Source: a bacterium | GTDB taxonomy: Bacteria; Sumerlaeota; Sumerlaeia; SLMS01; JAHLLQ01 | Direction: 5' to 3' | Length of the DNA: 64,000 nucleotides | NCBI GenBank assembly: GCA_020444065.1 | Contig: JAHLLQ010000001.1 | Location: forward strand, 1 to 64,000 | Part shown: positions 11,051 through 40,567 of the stretch, in pieces | How positions within the stretch are numbered: the first letter of the stretch is position 1 | Layout: each line of letters begins with the position of its first letter | The notes under the pieces: generated by a model | What the model saw: only the letters and a program-made list of their open reading frames with translations | What the model was told of the DNA's origin: nothing | Database searches by the model: none | Made by a program: the position numbers and the translations under genes

Positions 11051-11092
11051 GGGGAATGGAATCTCCTCGGTCAGGCTGCGGCAAGGCGAACC

Positions 11093-12616: not shown

Positions 12617-12689
12617 GCACCGTTTCTCAGGAGGAACGGTGAGGAACGTCCAGGGGAATCAGCGCAGAAGTTGTCCGAATGCCTCACCC

Positions 12690-17499: not shown

Positions 17500-17759
17500 G
17501 AGCTTTCCTCGAACTCGGTGTCTAGGGGGATGCCCGCCCGGATTCTGTATATGGCGAGATTCGCTCCAGCTCTCGCAGCAGGGGCATCGAACGGATATGC
17601 TCGATGGTACATGATTGATTTTAGAGCGGATAGGCCATTTGGACCCAAGGTGGCCGGGTATGATCCAGTGCTGATTTCCATTGGCAGACGCGATATTTAG
17701 CGGATATCAGTCGTTGTATTTCGTGTGATTCAGAGAAATCTCAAGGGAGCGGCCGAGCA

Positions 17760-19343: not shown

Positions 19344-19396
19344 AGTATCGGCGAAGCCTTGGGGCGTGAATCTACTGACCTGTCTCTTCTGAAATC

Positions 19397-20455
19397 CTAT
19401 CCGCGGCGAGCCTGGAGGGCACTCCAGCCAGTCGTGGAGTGGCAACGGTCGTCCTTCTCAATCAGGAAGGCCTCAACGCCAGACAGGGCATCGATCATCT
19501 TCACGGCTGCTGCGGGGGCGGCGATGAAGGCGGCGGTGGACAGCGCATCGGCGCACATGACTGTATCGGCGACGATGCTGGCGCTGGTGCTCTGGAGCGG
19601 ACAGATTCCGGAACGCGGATCGACGATGTGGTGATAAATGCCGGCGTTGTCGTAGTAAATTTCGTAGCGACCGGACGTTGCGACAGCGCCGTCGCGCAGG
19701 TGCAAGACCTGCGGGTAGTTGCCATGCTTGCGTGGGTCTTCGACGGCGATGGTCCACGGTCGGCCCTTTTCATTCAGGCCGCGCGTGCGGATGTCTCCTC
19801 CACCATTCACGAGATGATTTGTCACGCCGTGGCGAGTCAGTACTTCCGATGCCCGATCGATGATGTAGCCCTTCGCGATGCCATCGAGCGTCACGCCCAT
19901 TCCGCGCTCATTCAGTCGCAGTTCTTTGTCGGCAACCTGAAGGTTCCGGATTCCAACGTGCGACAGTGCCGCAGAAATGTGGCGATGGAAGTCTGAAGCA
20001 GACGAGGCCTCACTCTCCAGCACATCGATCACCGGCTTAATCGTCACATCGAAGAGCCCGCCCGTGAGCTTGTGATACGCGAGCGATTCATTGACGACAG
20101 AAAGCAGTTCCGGCGGAGCACCCTTGAGAGCACCGTCTCGGTTGAGAGCAAAAAGTGGGGACGCAGAATCATGGCGACTCAGGAGCGGAACGAGACGATC
20201 GACTTCCTCGAAGGCACGGCCGATCGCTTCCTGGGCCAGAGAGCGCGATGCGTGGACTGCCGTGATGCTGACAGTCGTGCCCATCGCGACGCGCGTGAGT
20301 GAAACGCTCTCAAGGCCATCGCCGAGTTTGACGATGTTGAAGGTGCCTTGCAGCAGGCCGCCGGCAATAGCACCGACACCGAGCGCACCGCAGGTCTTCA
20401 AGAACGTTCGGCGGTCGCAGTTGCGCAGTGAATCGAAGATGCTCGAACGAGTCAT
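19397..20455 (-). CDS. apbE: FAD:protein FMN transferase ApbE (Tat-exported)
   Basis: 352 residues. It attaches FMN covalently to Thr in RnfG and RnfD, using FAD as donor. The start has a twin-arginine signal (CDRRTFLKTCGALGVGAIAGGLL). The ApbE fold follows, with MGTTVSI, ...GLFDVTIKPV, LDGIAKGYIIDRA, VNGGGDIRTRG and HHIVDPRSG motifs and a late TVMCADALSTAAF segment that holds the Mg ligand. The ATG at 20455 overlaps the stop of the preceding small gene (ATGA), and GGAAGG is about 9 bases upstream. It is the last gene of the kor-rnf operon, which fits its job as maturase of the complex. Confidence 0.95.
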   Translation of the reverse strand: MTRSSIFDSLRNCDRRTFLKTCGALGVGAIAGGLLQGTFNIVKLGDGLESVSLTRVAMGTTVSITAVHASRSLAQEAIGRAFEEVDRLVPLLSRHDSASPLFALNRDGALKGAPPELLSVVNESLAYHKLTGGLFDVTIKPVIDVLESEASSASDFHRHISAALSHVGIRNLQVADKELRLNERGMGVTLDGIAKGYIIDRASEVLTRHGVTNHLVNGGGDIRTRGLNEKGRPWTIAVEDPRKHGNYPQVLHLRDGAVATSGRYEIYYDNAGIYHHIVDPRSGICPLQSTSASIVADTVMCADALSTAAFIAAPAAAVKMIDALSGVEAFLIEKDDRCHSTTGWSALQARRG

Positions 20456-20682
20456 GTCATGCTTCCTTCCGCATGCCGGCGCTGGTCGCCGGCATGATCG
20501 CAGTGGGATGAGGACAATGCGCATCCCTCGCAGTTGTTTTCGTGACAATGAGAGCGGTCGCCGATGATGTCGGCACCCGCGGGAAGTTCCGGGTTCTGCT
20601 TCCTCAGAACAGTCATGACGCCCAACCACAGAAGCGACAGGCCGACGATCGTCCCGACGGCAATAAGCAGGTGATAGATCAC
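20452..20682 (-). CDS. Small Cys-rich membrane protein, NqrM-like
   Basis: 76-residue protein with one transmembrane helix (IYHLLIAVGTIVGLSLLWLG) and a Cys/His-rich tail (SHCHENNCEGCALSSSHC). The layout is that of NqrM (DUF539), a small factor needed to insert the iron centre between NqrD and NqrE; RnfA and RnfE are their homologues. The gene starts with GTG at 20682, overlaps the rnfA stop by 4 bases (GTGA), has GGAGGT 5 bases upstream, and its own stop overlaps the apbE start. Such tight coupling argues that it is real although short. Similarity to NqrM is judged from architecture and position, not alignment. Confidence 0.75.
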   Translation of the reverse strand: MIYHLLIAVGTIVGLSLLWLGVMTVLRKQNPELPAGADIIGDRSHCHENNCEGCALSSSHCDHAGDQRRHAEGSMT

Positions 20683-21266
20683 TCGCCACCTCCCATGCCG
20701 GCAAACCCCATGAAGGCCATCGACAGAATGCCGGCGACCATCAGCGTGATCGCAGCGCCCTTTACGACAGAAGACATATCGGAGAGTTCGAGGCGCTCGC
20801 GAATGCCGGACATCAGCAGTAACGCCAGCGTGAACCCGGCGCCCGCACCAACCGCGAAGCTGAGGCACTGGACAAAGTTGTAGCCGCGGCTCGTTTGAAA
20901 GAGCGCCACGCCGAGAATCGCGCAATTCGTCGTGATCAGCGGAAGGAAGATGCCGAGGGCTCTGAAGAGAGCGGGGCTGAACTTCTTTACGAACATCTCG
21001 ACCAATTGCACGGAGGAGGCGATGACGACGATGTATGAAATCAGGTGCAGATAGGGGGCGTTAATCGCAGTGAGGATCTGGTGAATCGCGTACGCACACA
21101 TTGAACTGACAAGCATGACGAACGTCACCGCGGCACCCATGCGGACGGCTGTGTCCGTCTTGTTGGAGACGCCGAGGAATGGGCAGATACCCAGGAAAAG
21201 GCTGAGCACGAAGTTGTTAATCAGCACCGCCTGGAGGAGGATTTTCAATGGGGAATCGGTATTCAT
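20679..21266 (-). CDS. rnfA: Rnf complex subunit RnfA
   Basis: 195-residue inner-membrane protein with six helices. It is the RnfA/NqrE-type half of the ion-translocating core and pairs with RnfE around a [2Fe-2S] centre. Typical motifs are LINNFVLSLFLGICPFLGVS (N-terminal, with the conserved Cys) and LPLITTNCAILGVAL (the second conserved Cys after TTN). ATG 21266 overlaps the rnfE stop as ATGA, and AAGGAGG is 7 bases before it. Length matches the family. Upstream extension in the same frame has no similarity. Confidence 0.95.
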   Translation of the reverse strand: MNTDSPLKILLQAVLINNFVLSLFLGICPFLGVSNKTDTAVRMGAAVTFVMLVSSMCAYAIHQILTAINAPYLHLISYIVVIASSVQLVEMFVKKFSPALFRALGIFLPLITTNCAILGVALFQTSRGYNFVQCLSFAVGAGAGFTLALLLMSGIRERLELSDMSSVVKGAAITLMVAGILSMAFMGFAGMGGGE

Positions 21267-21895
21267 GCAGCAGCCTCCTTGCGACGTTCGCGCATCCAAT
21301 TGAAAAGCAGGAGCCACCCGCCCAGAACGAAGAAAGCACCGCCCGGCAGGACCATCACGACCCAGGGCTCGAAGTGAGAGCCAAGGATCGGAACACCGGC
21401 AAACGTCCCGTTTCCAAGAATCTCGCGGACGACGCCGAGCGAAAGGCATGCGATGGTGAACCCGATTCCCATGCCAAGCGCGTCGAGAATAGAACGGCCG
21501 ACGCTGTTCTTCGAGGCAAATGCCTCCGCCCGGCCTAGGATGATGCAGTTCACAACAATTAGCGCGATGAAGGCGCCCAGGGCGTTATAGATTTCCAGAC
21601 TGATCGCCTGGATCAAGTAATCAACGACTGTCACGAAGGTCGCAATGATCAGAATGAAGGAGGCGATGCGGACCTGTTTCGGGATCCACTTACGAACGAG
21701 AGAAACCATGACGCTCGACATCAGGAGCACGAAGGTCGTCGCCATTCCCATCGCCAGCGCATTGATGACCGAGTTTGTCACGGCAAGTGTCGGGCACATG
21801 CCCAACAGCGCCACGAATACAGGGTTTTCGCGCCAGAGGCCCTTGATGAACTCGTCCATGGACGGGTTGATGGCGGGCGAATTACTCGGAGACAT
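21263..21895 (-). CDS. rnfE: Rnf complex subunit RnfE
   Basis: 210-residue six-helix membrane protein, partner of RnfA. It carries FIKGLWRENPVFVALLGMCPTLAVT (first Cys motif) and LIVVNCIILGRAEAFASKN (second Cys motif), hallmarks of RnfE/NqrD. ATG 21895 lies inside the last codons of rnfG (14-base overlap) and has GGGAG 7-8 bases upstream; a second in-frame ATG at 21859 lacks a comparable site. Confidence 0.95.
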   Translation of the reverse strand: MSPSNSPAINPSMDEFIKGLWRENPVFVALLGMCPTLAVTNSVINALAMGMATTFVLLMSSVMVSLVRKWIPKQVRIASFILIIATFVTVVDYLIQAISLEIYNALGAFIALIVVNCIILGRAEAFASKNSVGRSILDALGMGIGFTIACLSLGVVREILGNGTFAGVPILGSHFEPWVVMVLPGGAFFVLGGWLLLFNWMRERRKEAAA

Positions 21896-22601
21896 CGTCC
21901 GCTCCCTTTTTCAGAATATCAACGCTGCGTTCGATGACGGGTACTGTCGATTCAGTATCTGTGCCGAGGATTGTCGCGACGGCACGCGAAGAGATTGTCG
22001 CACCCGTGATCGCTTCCATTTCCCAGGGTTGCGTCTTCTCCCCGTTCTTCACAAGCTTGACCTTCTCCTTCACCGCCGACCCATCGTCCGTCAGAGGAAT
22101 GGCCAGTTCATTGAAATTCGACAGGAATGCAGGATCGCTGATGATCTTGTCGCCCAGGCCGGGAGTTTCTTTACTCTCAAGGACCTTGAAACCAATGATT
22201 GCGTGCTTCGAGGGCGAGTAGCCGTAGATCAAAGAAATGGTATCCTGGAAGCCTTGTCCGGCAGTCTGTATGGCAACGCCTACAACTTCGCCATCATCGT
22301 CATAGCCGACGTAGAACTTCTTCTGCACCGGCGCATCCATGGTGGTGGGTTCGAGCTTGCCGTCGACCTCTGCGAACGGATGCTGAGACGTCGCGCCGGG
22401 GAGAACTTCGACAATGGCCGCCTCAAGCGCCGCCTCCTTGTTGGCGACGATGAAAGGCAACGTCAGTTGGAACGTCGCCACGATCAGGATGCCGGAGGCC
22501 AATCCAATACCGGCCATCGTCATGATCAGACGCAACGGACTGGGCGAATCGTCCTGCGGGACGACTTGTTGCTGCGGCATCTGTTGTTCCATATCAGACA
22601 T
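21882..22601 (-). CDS. rnfG: Rnf complex subunit RnfG (covalent FMN)
   Basis: 239 residues: short cytoplasmic N-terminus, one transmembrane helix (about 24-50) and a periplasmic FMN-binding domain. The flavinylation motif EAITGATISSRAV places the modified Thr at about residue 202. ETPGLGDKI, another family motif, is present at about 145-152. RnfG passes electrons between the membrane core and RnfD. Its ATG directly abuts the rnfD stop (TAAATG). Confidence 0.95.
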   Translation of the reverse strand: MSDMEQQMPQQQVVPQDDSPSPLRLIMTMAGIGLASGILIVATFQLTLPFIVANKEAALEAAIVEVLPGATSQHPFAEVDGKLEPTTMDAPVQKKFYVGYDDDGEVVGVAIQTAGQGFQDTISLIYGYSPSKHAIIGFKVLESKETPGLGDKIISDPAFLSNFNELAIPLTDDGSAVKEKVKLVKNGEKTQPWEMEAITGATISSRAVATILGTDTESTVPVIERSVDILKKGADDVSE

Positions 22602-23633
22602 TTAGGCAGCTTCCGCTTTCGATTTCACCGCGCCGTAGATGCGCGGCTGCGTCCAACGATCGATCAGTGGCGACAGTGCGTTCATGAATAGGATCGAGTA
22701 CATCACGCCTTCGGGCAAACCGCCGAACTCGCGGATTGCCACGACCAGAATCCCGATCCCTGCGGCAAAGAACCAACACCCACGGGGAGTAACGGGAGAA
22801 GTCACTGGGTCGGTTGCCATGTAGATCGCACCAAGCATCAATCCGCCACACAGCAGATGTTGCACGGGTCCGGGATACTTATCGGCGTCAATCAAGTGCA
22901 ACAAGGTCGCCAAAATAGCGACCGTCAAAAAGATTCCGACGGGAATGCGCCATTTGATGAAGCCGCGTACGCCAAGGTAGATGCCCCCGGCGAGCAGAAG
23001 GAGCGCACACGTCTCGCCGATCGAACCGGAGATATTGCCGAGGAGGAGCGAACTTGCCTGGGTCGAGATGCCCTCGAACTTCATCTTCGCCAACGGCGTC
23101 GCCGCCGTAATGGCATCGAACTCCGGACGCATGAACGGAAGGGCAAACGTGTCGCCACGCAGACGGAAGAAGTCCTGCAGTCCCGAATGAACCGGCCATG
23201 TGGTCAGCGCGAGGGGGAATGAGGCCTGGAGGAAGGCGCGTCCCGTCAGCGACGGATTGAAGACGTTATTGCCGAGTCCCCCGAAGAGATACTTGCCCAG
23301 CGCGACCGCGACAATTCCACCCATCAGCGCCATCCAGATCGGCAAGCCCGGCGGCAAGGTCAGCGCAAGGAGAATTGCCGTCAGCAGTGCGCTGCCGTCG
23401 CGCAGCGTGCTTTCGCTCCAGCGAGGCCGGCCAGTGATGATCCACTCCGTCCCCATGGCGCCAATCGTACAGGCCAACAGCACCATCAGCGCGCTGATTC
23501 CGAACAAGTACAACGCAACGAGCACGACAGGCGCCAGCGCGTAAAGCACATGCCGCATCACCTTGGGCGTGTCGACCGGGCGCTTCAGGAACGGCCCCGT
23601 GGAGATAATCAGCTTGGGCGATTGTGCACTCAT
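22602..23633 (-). CDS. rnfD: Rnf complex subunit RnfD (covalent FMN)
   Basis: 343-residue polytopic membrane protein of the NqrB/RnfD family, about 9-10 helices. Motifs: FGGLGNNVFNPSLTGRAFL and the flavinylation segment DAITAATPLA (residues 173-182, Thr 179 the expected FMN site), and near the end TDPVTSPVTPRG. It forms the main ion-channel subunit with FMN and riboflavin. Start overlaps the rnfC stop as ATGA. Confidence 0.95.
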   Translation of the reverse strand: MSAQSPKLIISTGPFLKRPVDTPKVMRHVLYALAPVVLVALYLFGISALMVLLACTIGAMGTEWIITGRPRWSESTLRDGSALLTAILLALTLPPGLPIWMALMGGIVAVALGKYLFGGLGNNVFNPSLTGRAFLQASFPLALTTWPVHSGLQDFFRLRGDTFALPFMRPEFDAITAATPLAKMKFEGISTQASSLLLGNISGSIGETCALLLLAGGIYLGVRGFIKWRIPVGIFLTVAILATLLHLIDADKYPGPVQHLLCGGLMLGAIYMATDPVTSPVTPRGCWFFAAGIGILVVAIREFGGLPEGVMYSILFMNALSPLIDRWTQPRIYGAVKSKAEAA

Positions 23634-24973
23634 GCGGCGTTGTTCTTCTTCCGAGCCATCTCTTCACGGATGACTCCCTTGGCCACGCGGAATCGCTGGA
23701 CCAGGGGAATGTTCGACGGACAGACATAGGAGCATGATCCGCACTCCATGCAATCCATCAGATGATAGTTCTCCAGCATCTCGTCGTACCGCCCCATCCG
23801 GGCCAGCGCGCCGAGTTGAGTCGGATTCAGGAACACCGGACATGCGTCAAGGCAACTGGCGCACCGAATGCACGCATACTCCTGCCGCGGTCCGGCTGCC
23901 TGCTTCGAAGTCAGGCACACAATTCCAGACACGCCCTTTGTAACAGGGACGCGCAGATCGTACTGCGGCGTGCCCATCATCGGGCCGCCAAAGAGAATCT
24001 GAGACGCGTCCTCGGTGATACCACCGCAGTAGTCGAGGATCTCCTGGAGAGCGGTCCCGACCGGGACAAGAAGCGTCGATGGTTGCTTGATGCCAGGGCC
24101 GGTCACTGTGATGACGCGCTCGATCAGAGGCTGGCCGAAGGAGAAGAGCTCGCCGATTCCCGCTACCGTCCCAACGTTCTGCACAACAACCTGTGCATCG
24201 AGCGGAAGTTTGCCGCTGGGGATCTCACGCTGCAGAACGGCCGTGACGAGCATCTTTTCCGCGCCTTGTGGGTACTTCGTTTCCAGAGGGACCAATTCGC
24301 ACGGAAGATCCGCCGGCACGCGGTCTTGCAGGCCGCGGATAGCGTCCCACTTGTTCGTCTCGACGCCGATGAAAGTCTTCTCTGCACCAAGCAGTTTCTG
24401 GATAATGCGGATTCCAAGGAAGATCGCATCCGCCCAATCCAACATGATGCGATGGTCGGTCGTCAGGTAGGGCTCACATTCGCATCCGTTAACGAGGAAA
24501 TACTGGACGTGCTTGCCCTCGGGAACAGAGAGCTTCACATGCGTCGGGAATGCCGCCCCGCCGAGACCGACGAAGCCGCCTTCCTTGACCATTGTCAGCA
24601 GTTGCTCGGCCGGCATGGATTCCCAATCAACGGGTTCTTCATTATGTAGAGTCTGCGGCGATGAGGGATCCGTTGCGATGACAATCGATTCCACCATTCG
24701 CCCCGACGGGTGATGCCGAAGTTCGATCGCCTTTACCTTTCCCGTCACGGATGCATGGAGAGGCACCGAAACAAAGCCACCGGCCTTTGCAATCAACTGA
24801 CCGCGATAAACGCGATCGCCGGCTTTCACAAGAGCGACCGACGGTGCCCCCAAGTGCTGGCTGAGCGGCAATACCACCTCGGCCGGCATCGGGATACGCT
24901 CAATCAAGCGCCCCTCGGTCAGTCCTTTGTTCTCCGGCGGATGAACACCGTGGCGGAAAGTCTTTGCGCTCAT
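23630..24973 (-). CDS. rnfC: Rnf complex subunit RnfC
   Basis: 447 residues. RnfC is the peripheral NADH/FMN subunit. The glycine-rich nucleotide/FMN region is seen at VGLGGAAFPTHVKL and NGCECEPYLTTDHR (about 155-195), followed by the SLBB-type domain. Two [4Fe-4S] motifs follow, CIRCASCLDACP and CMECGSCSYVCP (about 367-415). Length is standard (no long C-terminal repeats as in some Proteobacteria). ATG overlaps the stop of the PFOR-like gene by 4 bases. Confidence 0.95.
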   Translation of the reverse strand: MSAKTFRHGVHPPENKGLTEGRLIERIPMPAEVVLPLSQHLGAPSVALVKAGDRVYRGQLIAKAGGFVSVPLHASVTGKVKAIELRHHPSGRMVESIVIATDPSSPQTLHNEEPVDWESMPAEQLLTMVKEGGFVGLGGAAFPTHVKLSVPEGKHVQYFLVNGCECEPYLTTDHRIMLDWADAIFLGIRIIQKLLGAEKTFIGVETNKWDAIRGLQDRVPADLPCELVPLETKYPQGAEKMLVTAVLQREIPSGKLPLDAQVVVQNVGTVAGIGELFSFGQPLIERVITVTGPGIKQPSTLLVPVGTALQEILDYCGGITEDASQILFGGPMMGTPQYDLRVPVTKGVSGIVCLTSKQAAGPRQEYACIRCASCLDACPVFLNPTQLGALARMGRYDEMLENYHLMDCMECGSCSYVCPSNIPLVQRFRVAKGVIREEMARKKNNAA

Positions 24974-27900
24974 GACTCCGTCCCTACTTCTGCTTCACTT
25001 GCGCGGTTCGCCAGGAATTCACGAAGCGACTGACGGAAGAAGTCCGGGTCGTTGCTGTAGCCGGACAGTGCCAGCAGGCGCTGGACGATCTTCTGTCGGG
25101 TTTCCTCCGGTGTCTCTGCAACGACAACTGGCTCCGGTGGCGTGGGACTCGAAGCGGGCTCCTCAACAAGCGCGGGAGCCTTACCCGATGCGATCCGTTG
25201 CAGTTCATGCCATTCGGCGAGCTTCTTCTCGCTGAATGCGATCAATTCCGGGGACAGGATCGCAAGAAACTGGCGTCCACGCGCATCGGCTCCACGAACA
25301 AACGCGTGCAGCCCGGAACGCTCGTCTTCCGAGATCTGAAGGTACTCTGCGAGCGGCATCCCGCGCTCCCCTGCCGGAGCTTTGCGGAAGCCGTTCTGGA
25401 AACGCGCTTCCTGCACCGCCCAGTCAGCCGGAGTTGCAGCCACTTCCAGAGCTTCAACATCTCCGCCTGGCTTTTGGACGTTCAGAGTATGCGTTCCCCA
25501 ATCCTCAGAGGCTGCGCGATTATCGCCCAATTGCAGCTTGCCCGAGGCATATCGGAAGAGCGGGAAAACGCGGCCGGAAACTGCGATTTCTGCATGAGCG
25601 ACGATCTTCTGCGGGGCAACACCGCTGCTCGCCGGGTGAGGCGCATGGACGTGCAAGAGGGCCGGTCGGGAGGACTCCATGCAGTCGACGACTCCAGCGA
25701 CGAGATGTGCCGGCGCACCGATGCTGCTTTGCAGTGCGATCGCATCGTACCGGCGAGCCAAGGCCAGCAGATCGATCTTGGGATCTGCGCCATCTGTGTT
25801 GAGAAGAACAACATTCACCGGGTATTCCGACTTCAGCAGTGCCGCGACCGATGCAGAACTCGCCTTTGCACTATCGCAAAGCACAACGATTGGGGGCAGG
25901 AGGTGCTTGGCATCGACTTCCTGCGCGACTCCTGCGGCAACAAGGTCATCGGCTTCCTGCACGATCTGCAATTCTCCAGCGATCTGTTGCCGGATACCTT
26001 CCATCATGCCGCGTGCAATGCCTGCAATGTCGCCGGCATCCTGAGCAAGCCACGGATTCCGGTGTGGGTTGTATGGATAGGTGGCATTCCAGTAGGCAGC
26101 GCCGTCGCGATCAATAGCTAACACTAAGGGTGTCCGCGACGGAACGGTGCCGGAGTAGCTCTGCTGTTGCTTCTCGAGGCTCGTCAGCAGATGTCCGAGG
26201 TGCTTCAGTAATTCGACATCGCGATCTTCGATTCCGCGGTTGTCACCGAAGATACCCAACAGTGCGTCAGGCTTCACATTAGAAGTCTCCAACTGCGCGA
26301 TCTTCTGATGGAAGGCTTCGAAGTCGTTGATCTTGAGAGTCGCATCGACTTTCCCCTGGATTCGATCGCGTACGCGGTCGATCAACGTGGTCAGATGCTT
26401 CGCATGTGCCGCGTAACGCGGATAAACACACGAGTGAATTGCCGCCGTGATCAAATGGACGGCAATCTTGGTGCTATCGCCCGGCAGCGAACCATCGCCA
26501 CCGACCAGAGAGAAGTACGCAGAGGGATCGAGCAGTCTGTTCAATTGCGACTGCGGTTTGTCCGCGCTGACGAGATCCGAGATACTGGCAGCTGGAACTT
26601 CACGCTGGAATTCGCAATCTTTGCGACCCACGGACAGCATCTCCTCGGATTGCTCCGCCCACTCGATGGCCCCCTCGGGACAAACTTCGAGACACAAGCC
26701 ACATGCCGTGCAACTCATCGGATCGATCGCAATGGTCAGGAGCCGACGATCATCCTTGTCGCGCGAATCGAAGAACTCCTCCGTTCGACTGAACGTGTAG
26801 TTCGGCGTCGCCGCCTGCAGCTTTTCGAATTCCTCATCGAAGACCTTGCGATCGTCCTCGCTCGGCTTCATGCGATCCATGAGTCGCTTGTAGGCCTCAT
26901 CAAGCAGCGGGCCGAATGCGAGAAACTGTCCGAGATCGTCTTTGGAAACGATCGTTGTGGCTTGTTGTGCCAGATGTTTCTGAATGCGCTGAAGCTGCAC
27001 AAGTCCATCGCAGCGATTCATCACAGTCTCGATCAGCTCCGAGGGCGTACTCACCGTCGACGGCATCGCCGAGTCGGGACACTGCGACCAACACGACGCA
27101 CATCCCGTGCAGTTCTCGGGCAGCCAGTGCGGTATGCGAAGACGCCATGGTGTCAGATCGCGGAAAGCGCTGCTGCCCGCCGGGATTATTCCCGATGCCA
27201 AATGCGGATCCGTCGCGGCCTGCTCAGGCTGGCCGGAATCGTAGAGGAATCCAACCGAATGCCAGAACCGCGCGCGGTTGAAGACAGTTGCGTCGGCGCC
27301 ATCTTCGCCGATCGTCCAGGGCGCATCGCCTTCTGGATTTGCAGGGCTTGGTGGAAGATCCTTGCCCGACCAAACGAGCTCCGCCGCTTCCTCTGCTGCG
27401 CGCTGCATACAGTCGGCGATCTGCGCGGCCAACTGCTCCCCGCCCAACTTCGTGAGGCGTTCGCGCAGTGCCTTGCGAACGTCTGCCTGCTTCGTATCCT
27501 CTACCAGCGTTCCAAGTGCCGCGCCGATGAGTGCCCAGCAGGCCAGCGAATCGAAGAACGCCGGCTGATCGGAAGCTTCACTTGAGATATTCTCGGCGTC
27601 GACGACGGTGATCTTCAATTCATTCTTGCAAATCCACTGTGCCGTCGACCGAGGCATCTCCGCCCAGAAGGAATTGGGATCGCAATCCGTTGCCACGATT
27701 ACATGTGCCCGCTTCTTCACGGACGACTGAGTTTCGTTCGCATCCAGGAGGTTTGACGATGCGACCAGGAGGATGTCGGACTTCTCCGGCGCCGTTGAAG
27801 CCACATCGGCGTCGCTTGCGTATGCGATGACGAGAGAAGCGGGAAGAAGATCCGATCCAAGACCGCCGGCTGCGAAGGTGCGCACATCCCAGTTCGAAGC

Positions 27901-29400
27901 TTCGGCCAGGGATTGGGCCAAGATACTCCCAACTGCGAGACCGCCCTGCGCCGCCAGGTAGTCCATGCGAAGCGAAGAAGTCTCTTCACTCGGAGAATCC
28001 GACGACTTCGGAAGGCAGAGCGAAGGAAGTTCAGGGTAGGCCTGAGCCAGGCGCTGCTGAACGGCCTGCAGGTGTGGGTAGCGACGGTTCGTCGCCGCTA
28101 CAAGATCGCCAAGATAGAAGAGGCGCTTGCCCGCCGTCTTTCCGCACATGTTGCGGACAGCAGCAGCCAGTTCACTGAAACGAGGCAACGGCCCGCCAAT
28201 TCCATACAATCCCGTGTGAATTGCCGGACGATCAGTCGGCTTCGCGAATCGGCCGAAGCCCGGGAATGGTGTCTCGTTTGCGGGCGCCAGCGTGTTCTCC
28301 GTTGCCTTGTCAAGCGCCGCGCGCACTTCGCGCGTGATCGGAGCGTGTGCGCTGCGCTCCAGGATCGTGATCGCCTTCTTCTTTGCCAGAAGATGCGATA
28401 ACATCTGCGCAGGGAACGGATGCCAAGTGACGATCGAGGCGATGCCCGCTTTGATCTTCTGCTCGCGAAGCCGATCGATGACTTCCCTGAGTGCGCCCCC
28501 AATCGCTCCCATGCAGACAACTAGATATTGAGCATCGTCAGCGCGGTACTCCTGCACCGGGGCGTACTCGCGTCCGGTCAGTTCACCATACTCGCGGAAT
28601 GCCTGATCGATGAATTCAGCGACATGATTCTGGAAGAAGATATCGTGACCAACGGCAGCGCGTGAGGCGCTTTCGCTGCCCATCAGTCCGCCAAGTCCTG
28701 CCGGATGATCGACATCGATCAGTCGCGGCACACGCCGGCGCTCACGTCCAAGCAGAATCTCCTGAGAAGTGCTGGGCGTCGCAATGCGATCGCTGGAATG
28801 TCCAAGAAACGCAGTTGCCAGGGCCTCATCCGGAAGTAGGAGCGACTGCACAGACTGTGCGGTTTCTGCGAGATCCTGCCCGCATACGCCAGGGATGAAC
28901 GACAGTTCTGCTACACGGTGGGCGATCATCGCCAAATCGGCTGCCTGCTGCGCGGTCGAAGCGAAGAACTGGAATGCGCCCGTGGCGCAAGCCCCAAAGA
29001 AATCATCCTGCCCGCCGGCGGAAGTACTTGCTGCTCGCTCGGAAGCATGGCAGGCCAGATGCACCGTAAAGGGTGCGTGTTTTCCTACGGCCGTTGTCAG
29101 TTCGGCCTGTGCACAGCCAAGGTCGGAGACCAATGCAGTCGCGCGTGCACCGGTCAGTGCGGCGCCCGTGAGCGTGCCGATCGCCCCGGCAGAATTCTCA
29201 GAGGACTCGATGGTCTTCTCGCCCGGAACCAGGTTAATCAATCCACTTTCCAGTTCCGTCAATTCCGGCGTGGACTGTACTACGAGCACGTCGGCAACAA
29301 GCCGTTCAACGGCGCAGGCGGCCGCTTGCCCATCGAGTGTCGATGCGACTCCGGGACAAGGCGCTTCTTTTTCAGGCGATTTAGCTTTTCGAAACCACAT
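24970..29400 (-). CDS. PFOR-like multidomain iron-sulfur protein inside the rnf operon
   Basis: 1476 residues, longer than pyruvate:ferredoxin oxidoreductase (about 1170-1200) but with its domain order. A domain-I-like region (about 15-250) contains SSENSAGAIGTLTGA and APFTVHLACH. Domain II lies near 285-400 (YLVVCMGAIGGALREVID), a gamma-like domain near 490-690 (GGLAVGSILAQSLAEA, AAGGLGSD). Two ferredoxin motifs follow: CTGCASCWSQCP (about 760) and CTACGLCLEVCP (about 895). The C-terminal 500 residues fall where the TPP domain should be. The catalytic features look lost: the conserved domain-I Arg falls at a His in HLACH, and no GDG-x-(A/S)-x-D-IG TPP/Mg motif is visible. It starts inside the last 20 bases of rnfB and overlaps rnfC. 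A structural or electron-wiring subunit linking ferredoxin to Rnf is inferred. A Pro-rich linker (VEEPASSPTPPEPV) precedes the last 50 residues. Confidence 0.8.
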   Translation of the reverse strand: MWFRKAKSPEKEAPCPGVASTLDGQAAACAVERLVADVLVVQSTPELTELESGLINLVPGEKTIESSENSAGAIGTLTGAALTGARATALVSDLGCAQAELTTAVGKHAPFTVHLACHASERAASTSAGGQDDFFGACATGAFQFFASTAQQAADLAMIAHRVAELSFIPGVCGQDLAETAQSVQSLLLPDEALATAFLGHSSDRIATPSTSQEILLGRERRRVPRLIDVDHPAGLGGLMGSESASRAAVGHDIFFQNHVAEFIDQAFREYGELTGREYAPVQEYRADDAQYLVVCMGAIGGALREVIDRLREQKIKAGIASIVTWHPFPAQMLSHLLAKKKAITILERSAHAPITREVRAALDKATENTLAPANETPFPGFGRFAKPTDRPAIHTGLYGIGGPLPRFSELAAAVRNMCGKTAGKRLFYLGDLVAATNRRYPHLQAVQQRLAQAYPELPSLCLPKSSDSPSEETSSLRMDYLAAQGGLAVGSILAQSLAEASNWDVRTFAAGGLGSDLLPASLVIAYASDADVASTAPEKSDILLVASSNLLDANETQSSVKKRAHVIVATDCDPNSFWAEMPRSTAQWICKNELKITVVDAENISSEASDQPAFFDSLACWALIGAALGTLVEDTKQADVRKALRERLTKLGGEQLAAQIADCMQRAAEEAAELVWSGKDLPPSPANPEGDAPWTIGEDGADATVFNRARFWHSVGFLYDSGQPEQAATDPHLASGIIPAGSSAFRDLTPWRLRIPHWLPENCTGCASCWSQCPDSAMPSTVSTPSELIETVMNRCDGLVQLQRIQKHLAQQATTIVSKDDLGQFLAFGPLLDEAYKRLMDRMKPSEDDRKVFDEEFEKLQAATPNYTFSRTEEFFDSRDKDDRRLLTIAIDPMSCTACGLCLEVCPEGAIEWAEQSEEMLSVGRKDCEFQREVPAASISDLVSADKPQSQLNRLLDPSAYFSLVGGDGSLPGDSTKIAVHLITAAIHSCVYPRYAAHAKHLTTLIDRVRDRIQGKVDATLKINDFEAFHQKIAQLETSNVKPDALLGIFGDNRGIEDRDVELLKHLGHLLTSLEKQQQSYSGTVPSRTPLVLAIDRDGAAYWNATYPYNPHRNPWLAQDAGDIAGIARGMMEGIRQQIAGELQIVQEADDLVAAGVAQEVDAKHLLPPIVVLCDSAKASSASVAALLKSEYPVNVVLLNTDGADPKIDLLALARRYDAIALQSSIGAPAHLVAGVVDCMESSRPALLHVHAPHPASSGVAPQKIVAHAEIAVSGRVFPLFRYASGKLQLGDNRAASEDWGTHTLNVQKPGGDVEALEVAATPADWAVQEARFQNGFRKAPAGERGMPLAEYLQISEDERSGLHAFVRGADARGRQFLAILSPELIAFSEKKLAEWHELQRIASGKAPALVEEPASSPTPPEPVVVAETPEETRQKIVQRLLALSGYSNDPDFFRQSLREFLANRASEAEVGTES

Positions 29401-30229
29401 CTTTGGGCCTGTTCATAAGTGACTTAAATTGCTGTCCTTCGATCCACGTGATAGCGCCGGTGGGACAGCGCTTTATGGCATTCGAATCCTGCAGCGAGAG
29501 CAACTCCTCGTTCAGGACGGGCAGATTGTGTTCCATCTTCAGCAATCCCTGGGGCGCATCGGCAACGCAACGACCGCAAGCCGTGCAAGCGACCTTGCAG
29601 AAGTCGAGCATGCCGTCGCCCTCGAGTACGGACTTGCATTGGACGAAGAGCTTCTGCTTCATCGGGACGATTTCAAAGAGATCCTTCGGACACGCGCGGA
29701 CGCAGTCGCCGCAGGATGTACACTTCACCGGATCCACGATCGGAAGACCGGTCTCGCTCATCGTGATCGCGTCGAACGTACACGCCACATCGCAATCGCC
29801 GAAGCCGAGACAGCCATAACGGCAGCCCTTCGTTCCACCAGCAACGGATGCTGCTGCACGACACGTTGGCTGACCTTGGTACTCGGCCATCTGGATGGCA
29901 ACATTAGAGCCACCGGCGCACCGTAGTCGAGCAACCATCGGCTCGGCCTCGCCCGCTTCGACGCCGAGGAAATCCGCGACTAACTGGGCCGTTGCCGCCC
30001 CACCGACGGGGCAACCACTCGGCTGAATGTTGCCGGCGATGACGTTCTCCGCAAAGGCACGACAGCCGGGCAGCCCGCACGAGCCGCAATTGGTCCCGGG
30101 CATCATGTCATTGACAACATCGATGCGCGGATCCTCGTAGACCTTCAGCTTCTGGCTAGCCACGGCAAGCACGCCCGCGAGGATAGTCGTCAGCCCCAGA
30201 AGGTAGCCTATGGCGATCAGACTCTCCAT
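29381..30229 (-). CDS. rnfB: Rnf complex subunit RnfB (ferredoxin-binding)
   Basis: 282 residues: one N-terminal transmembrane helix, the Fes [4Fe-4S] motif NCGSCGLPGCRAFAENV (about 47-63) with a further Cys in GCPVGG, then a ferredoxin-like region with CTSCGDCVRACP and CTACGRCVADAP, and a final CPTGAITW. The second cluster motif lacks the usual closing Cys-Pro directly after VADA and borrows one further on. RnfB takes electrons from soluble ferredoxin. It lies 8 bases after the 836-residue gene; TAGGGA precedes the ATG. Confidence 0.9.
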   Translation of the reverse strand: MESLIAIGYLLGLTTILAGVLAVASQKLKVYEDPRIDVVNDMMPGTNCGSCGLPGCRAFAENVIAGNIQPSGCPVGGAATAQLVADFLGVEAGEAEPMVARLRCAGGSNVAIQMAEYQGQPTCRAAASVAGGTKGCRYGCLGFGDCDVACTFDAITMSETGLPIVDPVKCTSCGDCVRACPKDLFEIVPMKQKLFVQCKSVLEGDGMLDFCKVACTACGRCVADAPQGLLKMEHNLPVLNEELLSLQDSNAIKRCPTGAITWIEGQQFKSLMNRPKDVVSKS

Positions 30230-30237
30230 ATCCGTCC

Positions 30238-32748
30238 CTAGTTAAACTTCGCTGCGCGCTCGACCAGACCATCCAAGCCGGGCTCATTCGGGTTCAGCGG
30301 TTTGCCGGGATGGATGATGTGGACAGGGCACTTCTCCGCTGCTTCGACCAGTTGGCGGAACGAGCCCGCCGACGCGTCGTTGATGAAGGCCTGCTTGTTC
30401 TCGTTGTACTTGAACAACTCGCCGTTCAACTGCACGCACTCGTTGCACGTCGTGCAGCGCGGCGTCTCGATGTACGGATCGTCGAAGGAGAGAGATTCTT
30501 CCTCCTCTTCCACCGGTGCCGCTTCGGGTTCCGTTGCGGCTTCCTCGACCGAGGCGGCAGAGGAGTTCGGTGCCGGGCGAGGTGATGCTGGCCGTGTGAC
30601 AGCACCTGTAACGGGAGCTTCGCTCAGCAACTGCCCGGCGATGCGATCGACGATCTCCTGTGTCAGTTCATCGAGATTGCGATCCAGTTCGGCACTGAAC
30701 TTCTCTTCGACAGATGCGATCGCGTTCTGCTTCTCGTCTTCCAGGCGCTGCTTTTCGTGCGCCAGAAGTCGCTCCGCATGGGAGTTCTTCACGCCGCCGA
30801 GTTCCTGCAGACGCCTCCACTGCGCACGGCACTGAAGAACGGCCTGCACGATCGGTTTCGACACGACGATTCGATGAACGCGGTTCTGTTCATCGACTGC
30901 CAGGATATACGGAATCTGGACTTCACGAGTTTCCGGAGTCCGGTCCATGTACTGCATCAATGGCACCATCTGGCGGTGCCACATCTCAACCGGCAGATCC
31001 CAGAAGGACTTCGCCGCGCGTTTGTCGGCCAGCAGGAAGTCCGCCGGCGTCATGGCGACTTCGACAGCCTGTGTTTCGCCTTCATTGACCTCAAAGAAGA
31101 ACTCCTCCGACGACCAATCGGCGTCGACCTTCGAGTTCATGTCGATGGCTATTCGATCGGCAAGGGCCGAGCCCTTCGCTGGATCGTAAGTAAAGGCGGG
31201 AAATGCGCGGGCTTCGAACGCGGCTGCGGACGAGAGATAAACCGGCAGGCCGGTGGTATTCTCGGGGGCCGACGCGAAGACGCTGAAGAGTGCCGGCCCG
31301 GAGTAGCTGAGGCCATCCATGAAGCCGGAGTACATCAGCGAGAATCGCGAGACAGGCGTCTGCAGAACATAGACGTCGCCAAGGGCCGCCGCCATTGTTC
31401 CCAGGCGCGCGAGCCAGTTCGCTTCGAACGGAACGCGAGCCAGACGATTCGGATCGGCAAGAAGATCGTCGACCTGAACGAGGACCTTGATCGGAGCATC
31501 GCTGGTCAACATATCGAGAAGCGCCGTCACCTGGCCCTTCCCAACGATGCTTCCCTCCACAATCAGGAGGACCGGAGGACAGAGTGCCTTCTCTTCTTGC
31601 GAAAGCATGGCTTCATCGAAGGCTGCGAAGATCGGATCGTGCAGCTCTTCGCGATAGCGATTCTCGAGATCGAGTCGCGCGACCTGCACGGCCTTGAAGA
31701 ACTCGACCATTTCGGCCATGCGATTGCGATAGCACTCGATCGCCGCCAGGCAATCGTTCACCACCGGTTCCATGGCGAACGGCAGACTCGAGGCGCCTCC
31801 CGAGCAACCGCACCAATTAAACAGCGGCGCGATGCGACGTAGCGTCGCGAGTGTCTTCTCGACGCGGGCCACGCGGGCTTCCGGAAGGCGATGGCTGAGT
31901 CGACTTTCGCTGAGCAGATCGGACAATGCGTTGAAATCCAGATCGGCCGAACCGACAGAATCTCGCAACGAATCCGGGCTGGCAGCATTTGCAGACTGAC
32001 TCTCGTCGGCCGACAGCAGGTTTTCGAGCCCGACGATGATCTCCGCTAATTCGTCCTTCCACTGCGCAGTACGCGCGTGCCAATCGGCGGAGAACGCCGC
32101 CGCCATCAGGCGGCGTGCCGCATCCGCGTTGCAGGGCAGAACATCGCCTGCGCCCCTTAGCGCGCGACGGGCGATCTCCAGGTCGGCGCGCAGTTGCTGA
32201 CTCTTCGCCTCGGGCAGTTTCGTGGCCGACATGACGCGCTCGATCGCGGGATCGAGAAGCTTGTCCATCGGTGATCCGGGGTTGTTCCCATCGAGTTGCT
32301 TGATCGACCACTCGAGTTGATGGAAGTGACGCGTCAGCCGCTCTGCCGCATCGCCTTCCTCGCCGGTTCCCTCGATGGCCTGATCGACCAATTGCATCAG
32401 TGTTTCAGCAACGGGCTGCTCGCACGTCGGCTTTACACAGAATGGGAACTCGTGCCGGAGCGAATCCAGATCGCGGAATGGACGCAGCAATGCCGGCACC
32501 GGCAATGACGCATCCGCCTGGCTATCCGGACGACGGCGGTTGAGGAAGAAATCCAGAAGCTGACGATAGACGGCAGCCTCGCGGTTTTTATCCATCGCCG
32601 GCGGAGTCGGCTCAACAGGCAGCGCGACCTTGCTCTCCTCAATGATACTCGCCCCTTCGGAGACTGCAGCAGTCCCTTCCGGGGGGAGATCCTTGTGGCT
32701 GTCGGGATGGAGTTCGCTTTGTTCTACAACGTCTTGTTGCTTATCCAT
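30238..32748 (-). CDS. Large protein with PFOR-related domain and C-terminal ferredoxin
   Basis: 836 residues, of no family I can name. After an acidic start comes a long helical region (about 50-380), then an alpha/beta domain (about 390-560) with PVLLIVEGSIVGKGQV, IKVLVQVDD, DVYVLQTPVSRFSLMYSG and ARAFPAFTYDP. The same order of strands occurs in the C-terminal part of the 1476-residue protein (PPIVVLCDSAKASSASV, VNVVLLNTD, IALQSSIGAPAHLVAG, GRVFPLFRYASG), so the two share a domain related in layout to the C-terminal TPP domain of PFOR. A coiled coil (about 665-720), a Pro/Glu linker and a ferredoxin-like end (CTTCNEC near 763-770, CPVHIIHPG near 806) follow. It lies 2 bases after korB and 8 before rnfB, suggesting an electron bridge between KorAB and Rnf. 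Confidence 0.7.
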   Translation of the reverse strand: MDKQQDVVEQSELHPDSHKDLPPEGTAAVSEGASIIEESKVALPVEPTPPAMDKNREAAVYRQLLDFFLNRRRPDSQADASLPVPALLRPFRDLDSLRHEFPFCVKPTCEQPVAETLMQLVDQAIEGTGEEGDAAERLTRHFHQLEWSIKQLDGNNPGSPMDKLLDPAIERVMSATKLPEAKSQQLRADLEIARRALRGAGDVLPCNADAARRLMAAAFSADWHARTAQWKDELAEIIVGLENLLSADESQSANAASPDSLRDSVGSADLDFNALSDLLSESRLSHRLPEARVARVEKTLATLRRIAPLFNWCGCSGGASSLPFAMEPVVNDCLAAIECYRNRMAEMVEFFKAVQVARLDLENRYREELHDPIFAAFDEAMLSQEEKALCPPVLLIVEGSIVGKGQVTALLDMLTSDAPIKVLVQVDDLLADPNRLARVPFEANWLARLGTMAAALGDVYVLQTPVSRFSLMYSGFMDGLSYSGPALFSVFASAPENTTGLPVYLSSAAAFEARAFPAFTYDPAKGSALADRIAIDMNSKVDADWSSEEFFFEVNEGETQAVEVAMTPADFLLADKRAAKSFWDLPVEMWHRQMVPLMQYMDRTPETREVQIPYILAVDEQNRVHRIVVSKPIVQAVLQCRAQWRRLQELGGVKNSHAERLLAHEKQRLEDEKQNAIASVEEKFSAELDRNLDELTQEIVDRIAGQLLSEAPVTGAVTRPASPRPAPNSSAASVEEAATEPEAAPVEEEEESLSFDDPYIETPRCTTCNECVQLNGELFKYNENKQAFINDASAGSFRQLVEAAEKCPVHIIHPGKPLNPNEPGLDGLVERAAKFN

Positions 32749-32750
32749 GG

Positions 32751-33722
32751 TTATGCATCGGCACCCTGGGCGATTCCGAATCGGTCGAAGGATTTGGTGA
32801 GAAGCTGCTCGCGCTGCTGCCAGATGGGCATCTTCTGCGGGCGGCGAATCTCGTCGTAGCAGGGAATGCTCTCGTTCTGGTAGAAGATGCCGATGGGCAC
32901 CTTGTCTTCCAGATCGGCCAAGCGGCGGGCATTGTTCATATCGCTGGGATCATGGTCTTCGTGAGTCTTGTACACGCGAGCCAGATCGTCGCTGACCTTC
33001 ATACCATTGTCGTGGCGCAGCAGCATCAGGTTATTCGGGTCGGCCAACAGCGACTGAAAGCCGGTCGGCATAAAATGCGGACAGCGCTGCAGAATGCGGA
33101 TGAACGCAAAGCCCTTGTGGTGATACGCGCGGCGGATCACATCGAACAGCAGTTCGGGAATCCACTCCACGACCTGCGCCACAAAACTCACGTTCGTAAT
33201 GCCGAGCGTCGCACTGACCGGGTTGATTGGATTCAAATACGCGCCGCCGGGGGTTGTGTTGGTCTTCCAGCCCTTCGGCGTCGTCGGCGAAACCTGCTTC
33301 TTGGTCAAGCCGTAGATGTTGTTGTCGTGCAGCATCGCGACCATATGGAAGTTCATGCGGACGGCATGAATCCAGTGTGCGGTACCGATACTGCAGCAGT
33401 CGCCGTCACCCATATTGACAAAGACATTCAGATCCGGGCGACGGATCTTGACACCCTGCGCGGTCGGCAGTGCGCGGCCGTGAAGGCCGTGGAAGCCGTA
33501 GGTGCTGACGTAATGCGGGAAGCGCGCGGCACAACCAATGCCGGAAACGAACACCGTCTTCTCCAGCGGCAGTTGCTCGTCACGGCACAGGCGCTGCACT
33601 GCAGCCAGAATACCATTGTCACCGCAGCCTGGGCACCAGCGCGAAACGCGGCCGGCGTAATCTTCCAACTCGAGGTATTCCTGGGGGTCGCTAAGGACAC
33701 ACTCTGTATTCAGTCCAAACAT
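32751..33722 (-). CDS. korB: 2-oxoacid:ferredoxin oxidoreductase beta subunit
   Basis: 323 residues. Catalytic TPP-binding subunit. It has the cluster/TPP motif WCPGCGDNGI near residue 30, the Mg-TPP motif GDGDCCSIGTAHWIHA (about 107-122) and NNIYGLTKKQVSPTTPKG after it, typical of 2-oxoglutarate- or 2-oxoacid-specific KorB proteins. The GDG motif here contrasts with its absence in the PFOR-like protein of the same operon. AGAGGA precedes the ATG, 21 bases after korA. Substrate (2-oxoglutarate or another 2-oxoacid) is inferred from subunit type. Confidence 0.92.
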   Translation of the reverse strand: MFGLNTECVLSDPQEYLELEDYAGRVSRWCPGCGDNGILAAVQRLCRDEQLPLEKTVFVSGIGCAARFPHYVSTYGFHGLHGRALPTAQGVKIRRPDLNVFVNMGDGDCCSIGTAHWIHAVRMNFHMVAMLHDNNIYGLTKKQVSPTTPKGWKTNTTPGGAYLNPINPVSATLGITNVSFVAQVVEWIPELLFDVIRRAYHHKGFAFIRILQRCPHFMPTGFQSLLADPNNLMLLRHDNGMKVSDDLARVYKTHEDHDPSDMNNARRLADLEDKVPIGIFYQNESIPCYDEIRRPQKMPIWQQREQLLTKSFDRFGIAQGADA

Positions 33723-33743
33723 GGGGAGAATCCTCTTCTTATC

Positions 33744-35651
33744 TTAGCGGGCACCAAGCCGGCGCTCGATCATTTGTTCGACTTCTTCGGGTTTGATGGG
33801 TTGTCCGTGCACATGGCTCCAGCAGTCGACATCCACAAGATAGCGGGCGCGGAGCAGGAGACAGAGGTTCGAGTAACGGCGGTTGTCATCGTCGATCAAC
33901 TCGTCATTCGGATCGTCGGAATAGTTGATCTCCACCGTAACGACTTGCTTGAACTTCTGCATGATCTCTTTGATGCCGGATGCCATGGGCTGCAGGAACG
34001 TCAGATGGAGCGAGGACACCTTGTGTCCCTTGCTGCTCATCGTATCGACGGCTTCCTCGATCGAACCCTTCGTGCTCCCCCACCCGACGATCAGCAGATC
34101 GCCCTCGGGGTCGCCATGCACCTTCGGCGTCTTCAACGTCTTCTGGAAAGCCGCCAGCTTCAAGCTGCGGTAACGGCAACCTTGCTGGTTGATGCCCGGC
34201 TCGTACGCAACGTGGCTCTCGCGATCATGGGCAAGACCCGTCAGCGCGTACATGCCGCCCGGCTGGCCGGGGATGTGGCGCTGGCTCAGGCCTGTCTTCT
34301 CATCCCAATCGAACGGCGGGTGGCTGGGATCCACCGGGCTCTGATCGATCGGAGGAGCCAGCCATTCCTTCTTGAACTTCGGACGCGGGAACATTTGCTG
34401 GCCGGTGGCCAGATTGGCATCGCTGAGGACGATCACAAGCGTGCGGAACGTCTCCGCAATCTTGCGAGCGGTGATAATCGAGTAGAAACAATCTTCAATC
34501 GTTGCCGGGGCCATGATGATCTTCGGCGCATCCCCATGCGTTCCAAAGAGCGCCGCCAGCAAGTCGCCCTGCTCCACCTTTGTGGGAAGACCGGTGGATG
34601 GGCCGCCACGCTGGACATTGACCAGGACCAGAGGAACCTCGCCCATCACGGCGAGGCCCATGAGCTCCGTTTTCAATGCCATGCCGGGACCCGAGGTGAT
34701 CGTGACAGCGCACTTGCCGGCATAGGATGCGCCGATCGCAAAGGCAGCCGCGGCGATCTCGTCCTCCGCCTGGTGGACAACGCCGCCGCACTCGTCGAAG
34801 ATTTCGCTGAGATAGTGAGAGGCCGAGGTCGCAGGCGTAATCGGATACATGGCACAAACGTCCATGCCCGACGCCACAACACCCAAAGCGATCGCCGTAT
34901 TGCCGTTCATGACGACCTGGGGTTCCGTAGATTCCATCGGGGTGACATCGAAACGGAAATCCAGATGCCCGCCCGCATATTCGAAGCCGGCTTCCAGCAA
35001 CTTCACGTTTGCATCGATGACCGGCTGGCCCTTTTTCTTGAACTTCGCCGCGATGGCCTTTCTGGCGTAGGCAAGCTCGCGCGAGTACACGCGGCAAAGA
35101 ATACCAAGGATGAACATATTCTTGCCGCGCTTCGGATTGTCCGTGTGCTTCAGACATTCCTCTTCCATCGGGACCTCGTAGACACGGTATCCCTTTGCTC
35201 GGAGGTCTGCGACAGTGGACGTGTAAGCCTTTGCGACGCCTGGGACCTTCGAAGAGGCCCAGACATTCTCCAGAATAATGATGGCGTTCTTCTTGAACTC
35301 GCCCGCGGCCTCACGCCCCTTCAAAACCTGCTCGTTCAGAGCCAGGACAATGTCGGTGTGGTTACCGGCGTTCGTGATCGGAAAGGAACCCAGTCGGATT
35401 CGGTTGCCGCTGGCGCCCGCCGTGCTGCGAGCAGGGGGCTCGACCTCGGCGGGGATAATCTCCACCGTCCAGACGCTGTTACCCATCTGGGCGCTGACGG
35501 TGCCGAACATCTGTCCGGCGGTCTGAGCACCTTCGCCGGAGTCGGAGATGATCTCGACGATGTGCTGGTCGACACGCTGGATGGTGCCGGCTTCCTGTGT
35601 GGGACTCATGCCCTCTTTTGCGCCTTCATTCATGACATTTCCTGTGCTCAT
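33744..35651 (-). CDS. korA: 2-oxoacid:ferredoxin oxidoreductase alpha subunit, gamma-alpha fusion
   Basis: About 635 residues. The first ~240 residues are the gamma domain (ISDSGEGAQTAGQMFG ... FKKKGQPVIDANVKLLEAG). The alpha domain follows with MNGNTAIALGVVASGMD, the substrate motif YPITPATSAS, QAEDEIAAAAFAIGASYAG and TSGPGMALKTELMGLA. This is the usual fused KorA layout. Several in-frame ATGs exist: 35651 has GAGG 4 bases upstream and 35633 has AGGAA 6 bases upstream; an even longer reading to 35747 has no support. First gene of the kor-rnf operon. Confidence 0.9.
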   Translation of the reverse strand: MSTGNVMNEGAKEGMSPTQEAGTIQRVDQHIVEIISDSGEGAQTAGQMFGTVSAQMGNSVWTVEIIPAEVEPPARSTAGASGNRIRLGSFPITNAGNHTDIVLALNEQVLKGREAAGEFKKNAIIILENVWASSKVPGVAKAYTSTVADLRAKGYRVYEVPMEEECLKHTDNPKRGKNMFILGILCRVYSRELAYARKAIAAKFKKKGQPVIDANVKLLEAGFEYAGGHLDFRFDVTPMESTEPQVVMNGNTAIALGVVASGMDVCAMYPITPATSASHYLSEIFDECGGVVHQAEDEIAAAAFAIGASYAGKCAVTITSGPGMALKTELMGLAVMGEVPLVLVNVQRGGPSTGLPTKVEQGDLLAALFGTHGDAPKIIMAPATIEDCFYSIITARKIAETFRTLVIVLSDANLATGQQMFPRPKFKKEWLAPPIDQSPVDPSHPPFDWDEKTGLSQRHIPGQPGGMYALTGLAHDRESHVAYEPGINQQGCRYRSLKLAAFQKTLKTPKVHGDPEGDLLIVGWGSTKGSIEEAVDTMSSKGHKVSSLHLTFLQPMASGIKEIMQKFKQVVTVEINYSDDPNDELIDDDNRRYSNLCLLLRARYLVDVDCWSHVHGQPIKPEEVEQMIERRLGAR

Positions 35652-40286: not shown

Positions 40287-40567
40287 GGCATGCCTCCATG
40301 AAGAGAATCTCGCCGGCCAGTCGTCCGGCCCTATTCCCAGCAGAATCCCAAATCGTGCGTCCCCCAGCCCCAACGCTGGGCGCCATCCCCTCGGGGCCAG
40401 CCGGTCATATGCGTATAGTGGATTCTACCCAGAGCCCGATGCGTTTGGCAATTGATTTACGGGTGAAGAAGCGCTCGTCAGGCCTGCTCTATTCTCCATT
40501 CGGCCCAGTGCTTCGGTTCTCTTGCCCCAAGTGATTCGTTGACAAGTGGGTCTTCTGCGGTGTTCGT
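40287..40567. other. Divergent intergenic region
   Basis: Region between the beta-helix gene and the conserved leader of the first scaffoldin-like gene. A TTGACA occurs at 40539-40544 on the plus strand without a good -10. No gene, repeat or terminator is recognised. Confidence 0.4.

Follow-up and report, generated by a model that had tools for sequence, protein, structure and literature searches.

The Rnf complex, as described for C. tetanomorphum and A. vinelandii (RNF1), comprises RnfA to RnfE and RnfG, with flavinylation-like sites and the flavin transferase ApbE. Two-subunit 2-oxoacid:ferredoxin oxidoreductases (structures 6n2n and 5b46) form a second relevant system. Among open-licence papers on Rnf together with KorAB, pyruvate:ferredoxin oxidoreductase (PFOR) or 2-oxoglutarate:ferredoxin oxidoreductase (KGOR), a single direct precedent for the arrangement reported here was found, and earlier descriptions may exist. 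This is the rnf2 operon of the Solemya velum symbiont, where PFOR genes are located between rnfB2 and rnfC2 (PMC4287430). The available excerpt of that paper reads them as a functional PFOR that feeds in pyruvate, and it mentions neither KorAB nor a second protein nor the loss of an active site; the comparison is with the published description. In tubeworm symbionts, Rnf genes are found in the same clusters as the four-subunit korABCD, and a complex has been proposed for other partners (PMC6315080).

Here, we describe a twelve-gene block on the minus strand (19,397-35,651) of a 64,000-nt window (positions 1 to 64,000 of contig JAHLLQ010000001.1, assembly GCA_020444065.1) from a bacterium of the phylum Sumerlaeota. 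The block has the Rnf subunits, flavinylation-like sites and ApbE in common with the described Rnf complexes. It differs from them by a PFOR-derived open reading frame (ORF), ORF1476, which separates rnfB from rnfC, and by a block of KorAB and ORF836. The available part of a 2025 RNF/NQR review (PMC12174285) mentions neither. The new element is the pseudo-PFOR adaptor. That KorAB and Rnf form one functional unit is well supported. On balance, the cluster probably encodes an ion-translocating 2-oxoacid:NAD+ oxidoreductase with this adaptor, for which we infer assembly, electron route, substrate and direction from sequence.

ORF1476 shows overall homology to PFOR (6cin, 1b0p). A profile built from 12 family members matched solved PFORs with E-values of 8e-109 (6cin) and 3e-102 (a further solved PFOR), values that are improved by the intact members in the profile. 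In contrast to PFOR, the residues for thiamine pyrophosphate (TPP) and for the proximal cluster are lost. In an alignment of ORF1476 to the 1198-aa PFOR encoded by the same genome, the domain-I YPITP, the cysteines of CxGCGEK and N[AS]TGC, GGDG and NTGGQ are all missing, so that the TPP-binding and proximal-cluster motifs by which a PFOR is recognized are absent. Both domain-V [4Fe-4S] sites (CX2CX2CX3C), which are shared with 6cin and 1b0p, are kept at residues ~764-774 (CTGCASCWSQCP) and ~894-903 (CTACGLCLEVCP). Motifs were surveyed in 18 family members, one of which is cut by a contig end (L108) and one of which is split into two ORFs, the first being scanned (L111). The PFOR motifs are all or nearly all kept in three members (L107, L108 and L112), intermediate in four (L099, L104, L106 and L118) and entirely gone in the remaining 11; the two [4Fe-4S] motifs are retained in 16 of the 18. 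A GTDB scan with ORF1476 alone gave no match, a search of the host phylum with ORF1476 and ORF836 retrieved mainly ordinary PFORs, and a plasmid search gave two weak matches. The split PFOR-like genes of two further genomes (G013 and G022) were rejected as relatives, there being no Rnf gene nearby in the stretches examined.

ORF836 matches no named family except for a C-terminal single-cluster ferredoxin domain (Fer4_13). It is homologous to the C-terminal half of ORF1476 (hhalign against the ORF1476 profile: probability 100, E-value 4e-92), and in two genomes (G112 and G253) a PorA-like N-terminal part is still present. Both proteins are thus descendants of PFOR that arose by duplication. A helical segment of ~30 residues, located ahead of the ferredoxin domain within residues ~655-725, is found in all 18 Rnf-linked copies of ORF836 and in none of the 32 Rnf-free copies. 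Because the latter form one clade, the absence may go back to a single loss, and the contrast is weaker than 32 independent cases.

ORF836 and KorAB occur without Rnf in many Proteobacteria and others. The four Rnf-free loci inspected (L127, L158, L162 and L166) have the order GltD-like flavoprotein-KorA-KorB-ORF836, with the gene for the NADPH-type flavoprotein (TIGR01316) upstream of korA; ORF836 of L158 is without an NCBIfam name. These clusters have orthologous KorA (about 60-66%), KorB and ORF836 and, as here, a pyridine-nucleotide module beside KorAB. They differ in that the NADPH-type flavoprotein takes the place of Rnf and that the pseudo-PFOR and the helical segment are lacking. The 2-oxoglutarate:NADP+ oxidoreductase of Azoarcus evansii presumably has a similar arrangement. 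In a KorA tree rooted on ordinary KorA of the host phylum, the Rnf-linked copies are basal and the Rnf-free copies are one nested clade. An ORF836 tree with PFOR-like sequences as the root shows the same pattern. Both trees were computed quickly under a simple model, and some of their branches are long.

The set is widespread. A profile search with ORF836 returned at least 544 relatives, of which the best 80 were kept, so that the counts given here are lower bounds. None of the genomes searched from the same family (four) or the same order (seven) has this type of RnfB, and the closest relatives of the set, among the matches listed, are from other phyla. The set recurs in Gammaproteobacteria (including FW602_bin.35, Bco_10 and Ca. 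Sedimenticola endophacoides), Gemmatimonadota (Gemmatimonadetes J002), Cloacimonadota (Cloacimonetes 4572_55), Calditrichota and KSB1 (one metagenome-assembled genome (MAG) each) and Bacteroidota/Rhodothermota (Bacteroidetes and Rhodothermia MAGs). Most hosts are MAGs; individual binning errors are possible but cannot account for the repeated pattern. Gene order in relatives was a check proposed in the initial annotation, and the order is indeed mostly kept across distant lineages. The usual arrangement is korA-korB-ORF836-rnfB-ORF1476-rnfCDGEA. In a single alternative, the Rnf block comes first and the Kor block follows rnfA (G231, G259 and G226), and Kor is unlinked in a few loci. A PFOR-like gene adjoins rnfB in 13 of 13 loci where RnfB has at least 47% identity and in 0 of 16 below this value (1.5 kb flanks). 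KorA of the same clade (48-69%) is present in all 12 genomes with the set that were examined, including those where it is unlinked to rnf. Across loci, the pairwise distances of KorA, KorB, RnfB and RnfC correlate with one another (r 0.86-0.94; KorA-RnfC, r 0.94 for 11 loci; KorA-RnfB, r 0.87 for 13 loci), which reflects joint inheritance, not contact.

All 12 genes of the block are co-directional (korA-korB-ORF836-rnfB-ORF1476-rnfC-D-G-E-A-small Cys-rich ORF-apbE); gene set and coordinates were checked (Table 1). The reported tight coupling via GTGA and ATGA holds: genes overlap or abut at 8 of the 11 junctions, with gaps of 21, 2 and 8 nt at the remaining three. Internal promoters or terminators had been named as evidence that would split the unit. 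A scan of the minus strand between 18.0 and 37.5 kb gave no sigma-70-like promoter. Terminator-like patterns do exist in this region, in moderate excess when both strands are counted together (24 observed, 15.7 +/- 3.9 expected from shuffling), but every one on the minus strand lies within an ORF, the strongest (22,942-22,922) inside rnfD. Given the tight junctions, the negative promoter scan and the position of the terminator-like patterns, a single transcript for the whole block is plausible. The block contains no separate ferredoxin gene, and scans for Rfam families and tRNAs found no feature.

Table 1. Genes of the twelve-gene block, listed from korA to apbE. The junction is the distance to the following gene; negative values denote overlap.
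Feature	Position	Strand	Junction (nt)	Evidence
KorA, fused gamma+alpha subunit of two-subunit 2-oxoacid:ferredoxin oxidoreductase	33744..35651	-	+21	TIGR03710, POR, POR_N
KorB, TPP/[4Fe-4S] beta subunit	32751..33722	-	+2	TPP_enzyme_C, PFO_beta_C
ORF836, KorAB-associated protein, C-terminal half of duplicated PFOR plus single-[4Fe-4S] ferredoxin domain (aa ~755-836)	30238..32748	-	+8	hhalign, Fer4_13
RnfB	29381..30229	-	-20	PF04060; TIGR01944 74.9 bits (cut-off 68.7)
ORF1476, degenerate PFOR (pseudoenzyme)	24970..29400	-	-4 (ATGA)	PFOR profile match, catalytic motifs lost
RnfC	23630..24973	-	-4 (ATGA)	TIGR01945 516.7 bits; two CX2CX2CX3C
RnfD, DAITAAT flavinylation-like site	22602..23633	-	0	PF03116 E 1.5e-105
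RnfG, EAITGAT flavinylation-like site	21882..22601	-	-14	PF04205 FMN_bind
RnfE	21263..21895	-	-4 (ATGA)	PF02508 E 2.4e-66
RnfA	20679..21266	-	-4 (GTGA)	PF02508 E 9.9e-59; start overlaps rnfE stop (ATGA)
76-aa Cys-rich protein with one transmembrane segment, GTG start	20452..20682	-	-4 (ATGA)	NqrM-like in architecture only
ApbE flavin transferase, possible Tat signal	19397..20455	-		PF02424 E 3.5e-68

KorA reaches 529 bits against TIGR03710 (cut-off 483), aligns to 6n2n_A over 31-578 (E 5e-77) and keeps the YPITP and QAEDEI motifs. KorB carries CPGCGD, GIGCAARFPH, GDGD...N and RCPHF. TPP and [4Fe-4S] ligands are thus present in KorAB, which is homologous to the 6n2n and 5b46 systems and shares their TPP and cluster motifs. 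Unlike these, it is linked to Rnf and is accompanied by a protein, ORF836, that contains a ferredoxin domain. The best-model family names point to 2-oxoglutarate, whereas KorB has, in our alignment, an Arg at the position of StOFOR1 Lys49; the K49R exchange in StOFOR1 favours pyruvate (PMC5020499). 2-Oxoglutarate as the substrate is a guess. The same genome also encodes the E1 component of 2-oxoglutarate dehydrogenase (OGDH) and a second KorA.

All six Rnf subunits (RnfA to RnfE and RnfG) were matched by family models in one cluster. The flavinylation-like sites EAITGAT in RnfG and DAITAAT in RnfD are present, as are Cys residues in both RnfA and RnfE. ApbE, which the initial annotation counted among the set, is clearly matched. 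It also listed an NqrM-like protein: position, the single transmembrane segment and the Cys-rich tail of the small protein fit, but there is no match to Pfam NqrM, only an unrelated weak one at E-values up to 10. In 7 of 14 relatives (L104, L105, L106, L107, L109, L111 and L113), the gene after rnfA is a small Cys-rich ORF with one transmembrane segment; four of the other seven are cut off just past rnfA. Two of the small ORFs weakly resemble FeoB_associated.

KorAB would oxidatively decarboxylate a 2-oxoacid and pass electrons from its single [4Fe-4S] cluster to the ferredoxin domain of ORF836. Two-subunit KorAB has no such domain itself, and ORF836 provides one. Electrons may then proceed to the two [4Fe-4S] clusters of ORF1476 or straight to RnfB, and further along the redox chain of Rnf until they reach RnfC and NAD+; Rnf would export Na+ or H+ at the same time. 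ORF836 and ORF1476, perhaps as a heterodimer, would be a non-catalytic adaptor that docks KorAB onto Rnf. ApbE is predicted to flavinylate RnfD and RnfG, and the small Cys-rich protein may assist in making the intramembrane Fe-S site.

KorAB and Rnf had initially been suggested to be joined and made in fixed ratio, perhaps as a supercomplex. That they belong together holds, given the conserved order and the same-clade KorA in 12 of 12 genomes, whereas a fixed ratio is conjectural; the supercomplex is likely but can only be inferred, and the retained pseudo-PFOR and the Rnf-specific ORF836 segment make it more likely. Several observations weigh against it. A jointly inherited operon would also show synteny and correlated distances without any physical contact. 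KorA is on a separate contig in three genomes (G279, G218 and G156), and the block is interrupted in two, by an unrelated gene (G091) or by genes for a restriction system and for a transporter (G143). The [4Fe-4S] sites of ORF1476 are lost in G279 and G231, so that a role as a wire is not universal. The family appears to form a decay series from intact PFOR to pseudoenzyme, judged by motifs alone. The divergence of ORF1476 correlates weakly with that of RnfB (r 0.18) and KorA (r 0.27), a pattern that either a relaxed pseudoenzyme or a poor alignment would produce.

KorAB and Rnf might simply be co-expressed and exchange electrons via free soluble ferredoxin, the large proteins being soluble ferredoxin-like carriers or relics. 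Soluble ferredoxin is the usual partner of both two-subunit KorAB and Rnf, according to the available parts of two papers (PMC5020499, PMC12174285), and the location of KorA away from rnf in some genomes fits. Yet two proteins of 836 and 1476 residues, both lacking the catalytic motifs of PFOR, have persisted between the modules in different phyla, the ORF836 segment differs by Rnf linkage, and a ferredoxin gene is what the block lacks; we regard this explanation as doubtful. A reverse direction is less probable still: NADH and the ion motive force would push low-potential electrons to KorAB for the reductive carboxylation of succinyl-CoA to 2-oxoglutarate. Rnf is reversible, as stated in the accessible part of the review (PMC12174285), reductive tricarboxylic acid cycle clusters of tubeworm symbionts have Rnf genes integrated near korABCD (PMC6315080), and OGDH E1 could handle the oxidative step, but the sequence holds nothing that fixes the direction. 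A further alternative, in which ORF1476 still works as a PFOR or as some other 2-oxoacid oxidoreductase and Rnf is thus fed by two substrates, is very unlikely. Three relatives do retain the PFOR motifs, and pyruvate was proposed as donor in the Solemya velum symbiont (excerpt of PMC4287430), but ORF1476 itself has lost these motifs and the genome encodes its ordinary PFOR elsewhere. The adaptor reading remains our preferred one. Tentatively, and with somewhat more doubt than confidence, we picture a respiratory supercomplex in which two dead PFOR descendants are a protein-bound wire from KorAB to Rnf, so that 2-oxoacid oxidation pumps ions without free ferredoxin; ORF836 would be a relic that many proteobacterial KorAB clusters have kept since an NADPH flavoprotein replaced Rnf.

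In Gemmatimonadetes J002 (G143, locus L099), rnfB is separated from the PFOR-like gene by genes for an EcoRV-type endonuclease, a D12 methylase and an ATP-grasp protein (10014-13102), and the PFOR-like gene is in turn separated from rnfC by a gene for a citrate-type transporter (3021-4808); the unit order is still kept. Next to a normal KorA, this locus also codes for a 708-aa KorB-KorA fusion (17510-19636), with a KorB-like N-terminus and a KorA-like C-terminus devoid of the gamma domain. A comparable KorA-like match lies within a 738-aa frame of G279 (contig C82, 42124-43293). In the window, korA is preceded by a 405-bp gap, the previous same-strand gene ending at 36,057. This neighbour (36057-40373) encodes 1438 residues with a right-handed beta-helix and FG-GAP repeats. 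At the other end, a sigma-54 activator gene (17,760-19,343) is convergent with apbE, the end of which is 53 bp away.

A gene annotated as PFOR between rnfB and rnfC may be non-working, which calls for caution. If the complex exists, an enzyme has here been reduced to an adaptor, and its intact, intermediate and dead forms are all still extant in one operon. Many uncultured bacteria would then pump ions at a 2-oxoacid oxidation step of central metabolism, with a gain in energy yield over ordinary dehydrogenases.

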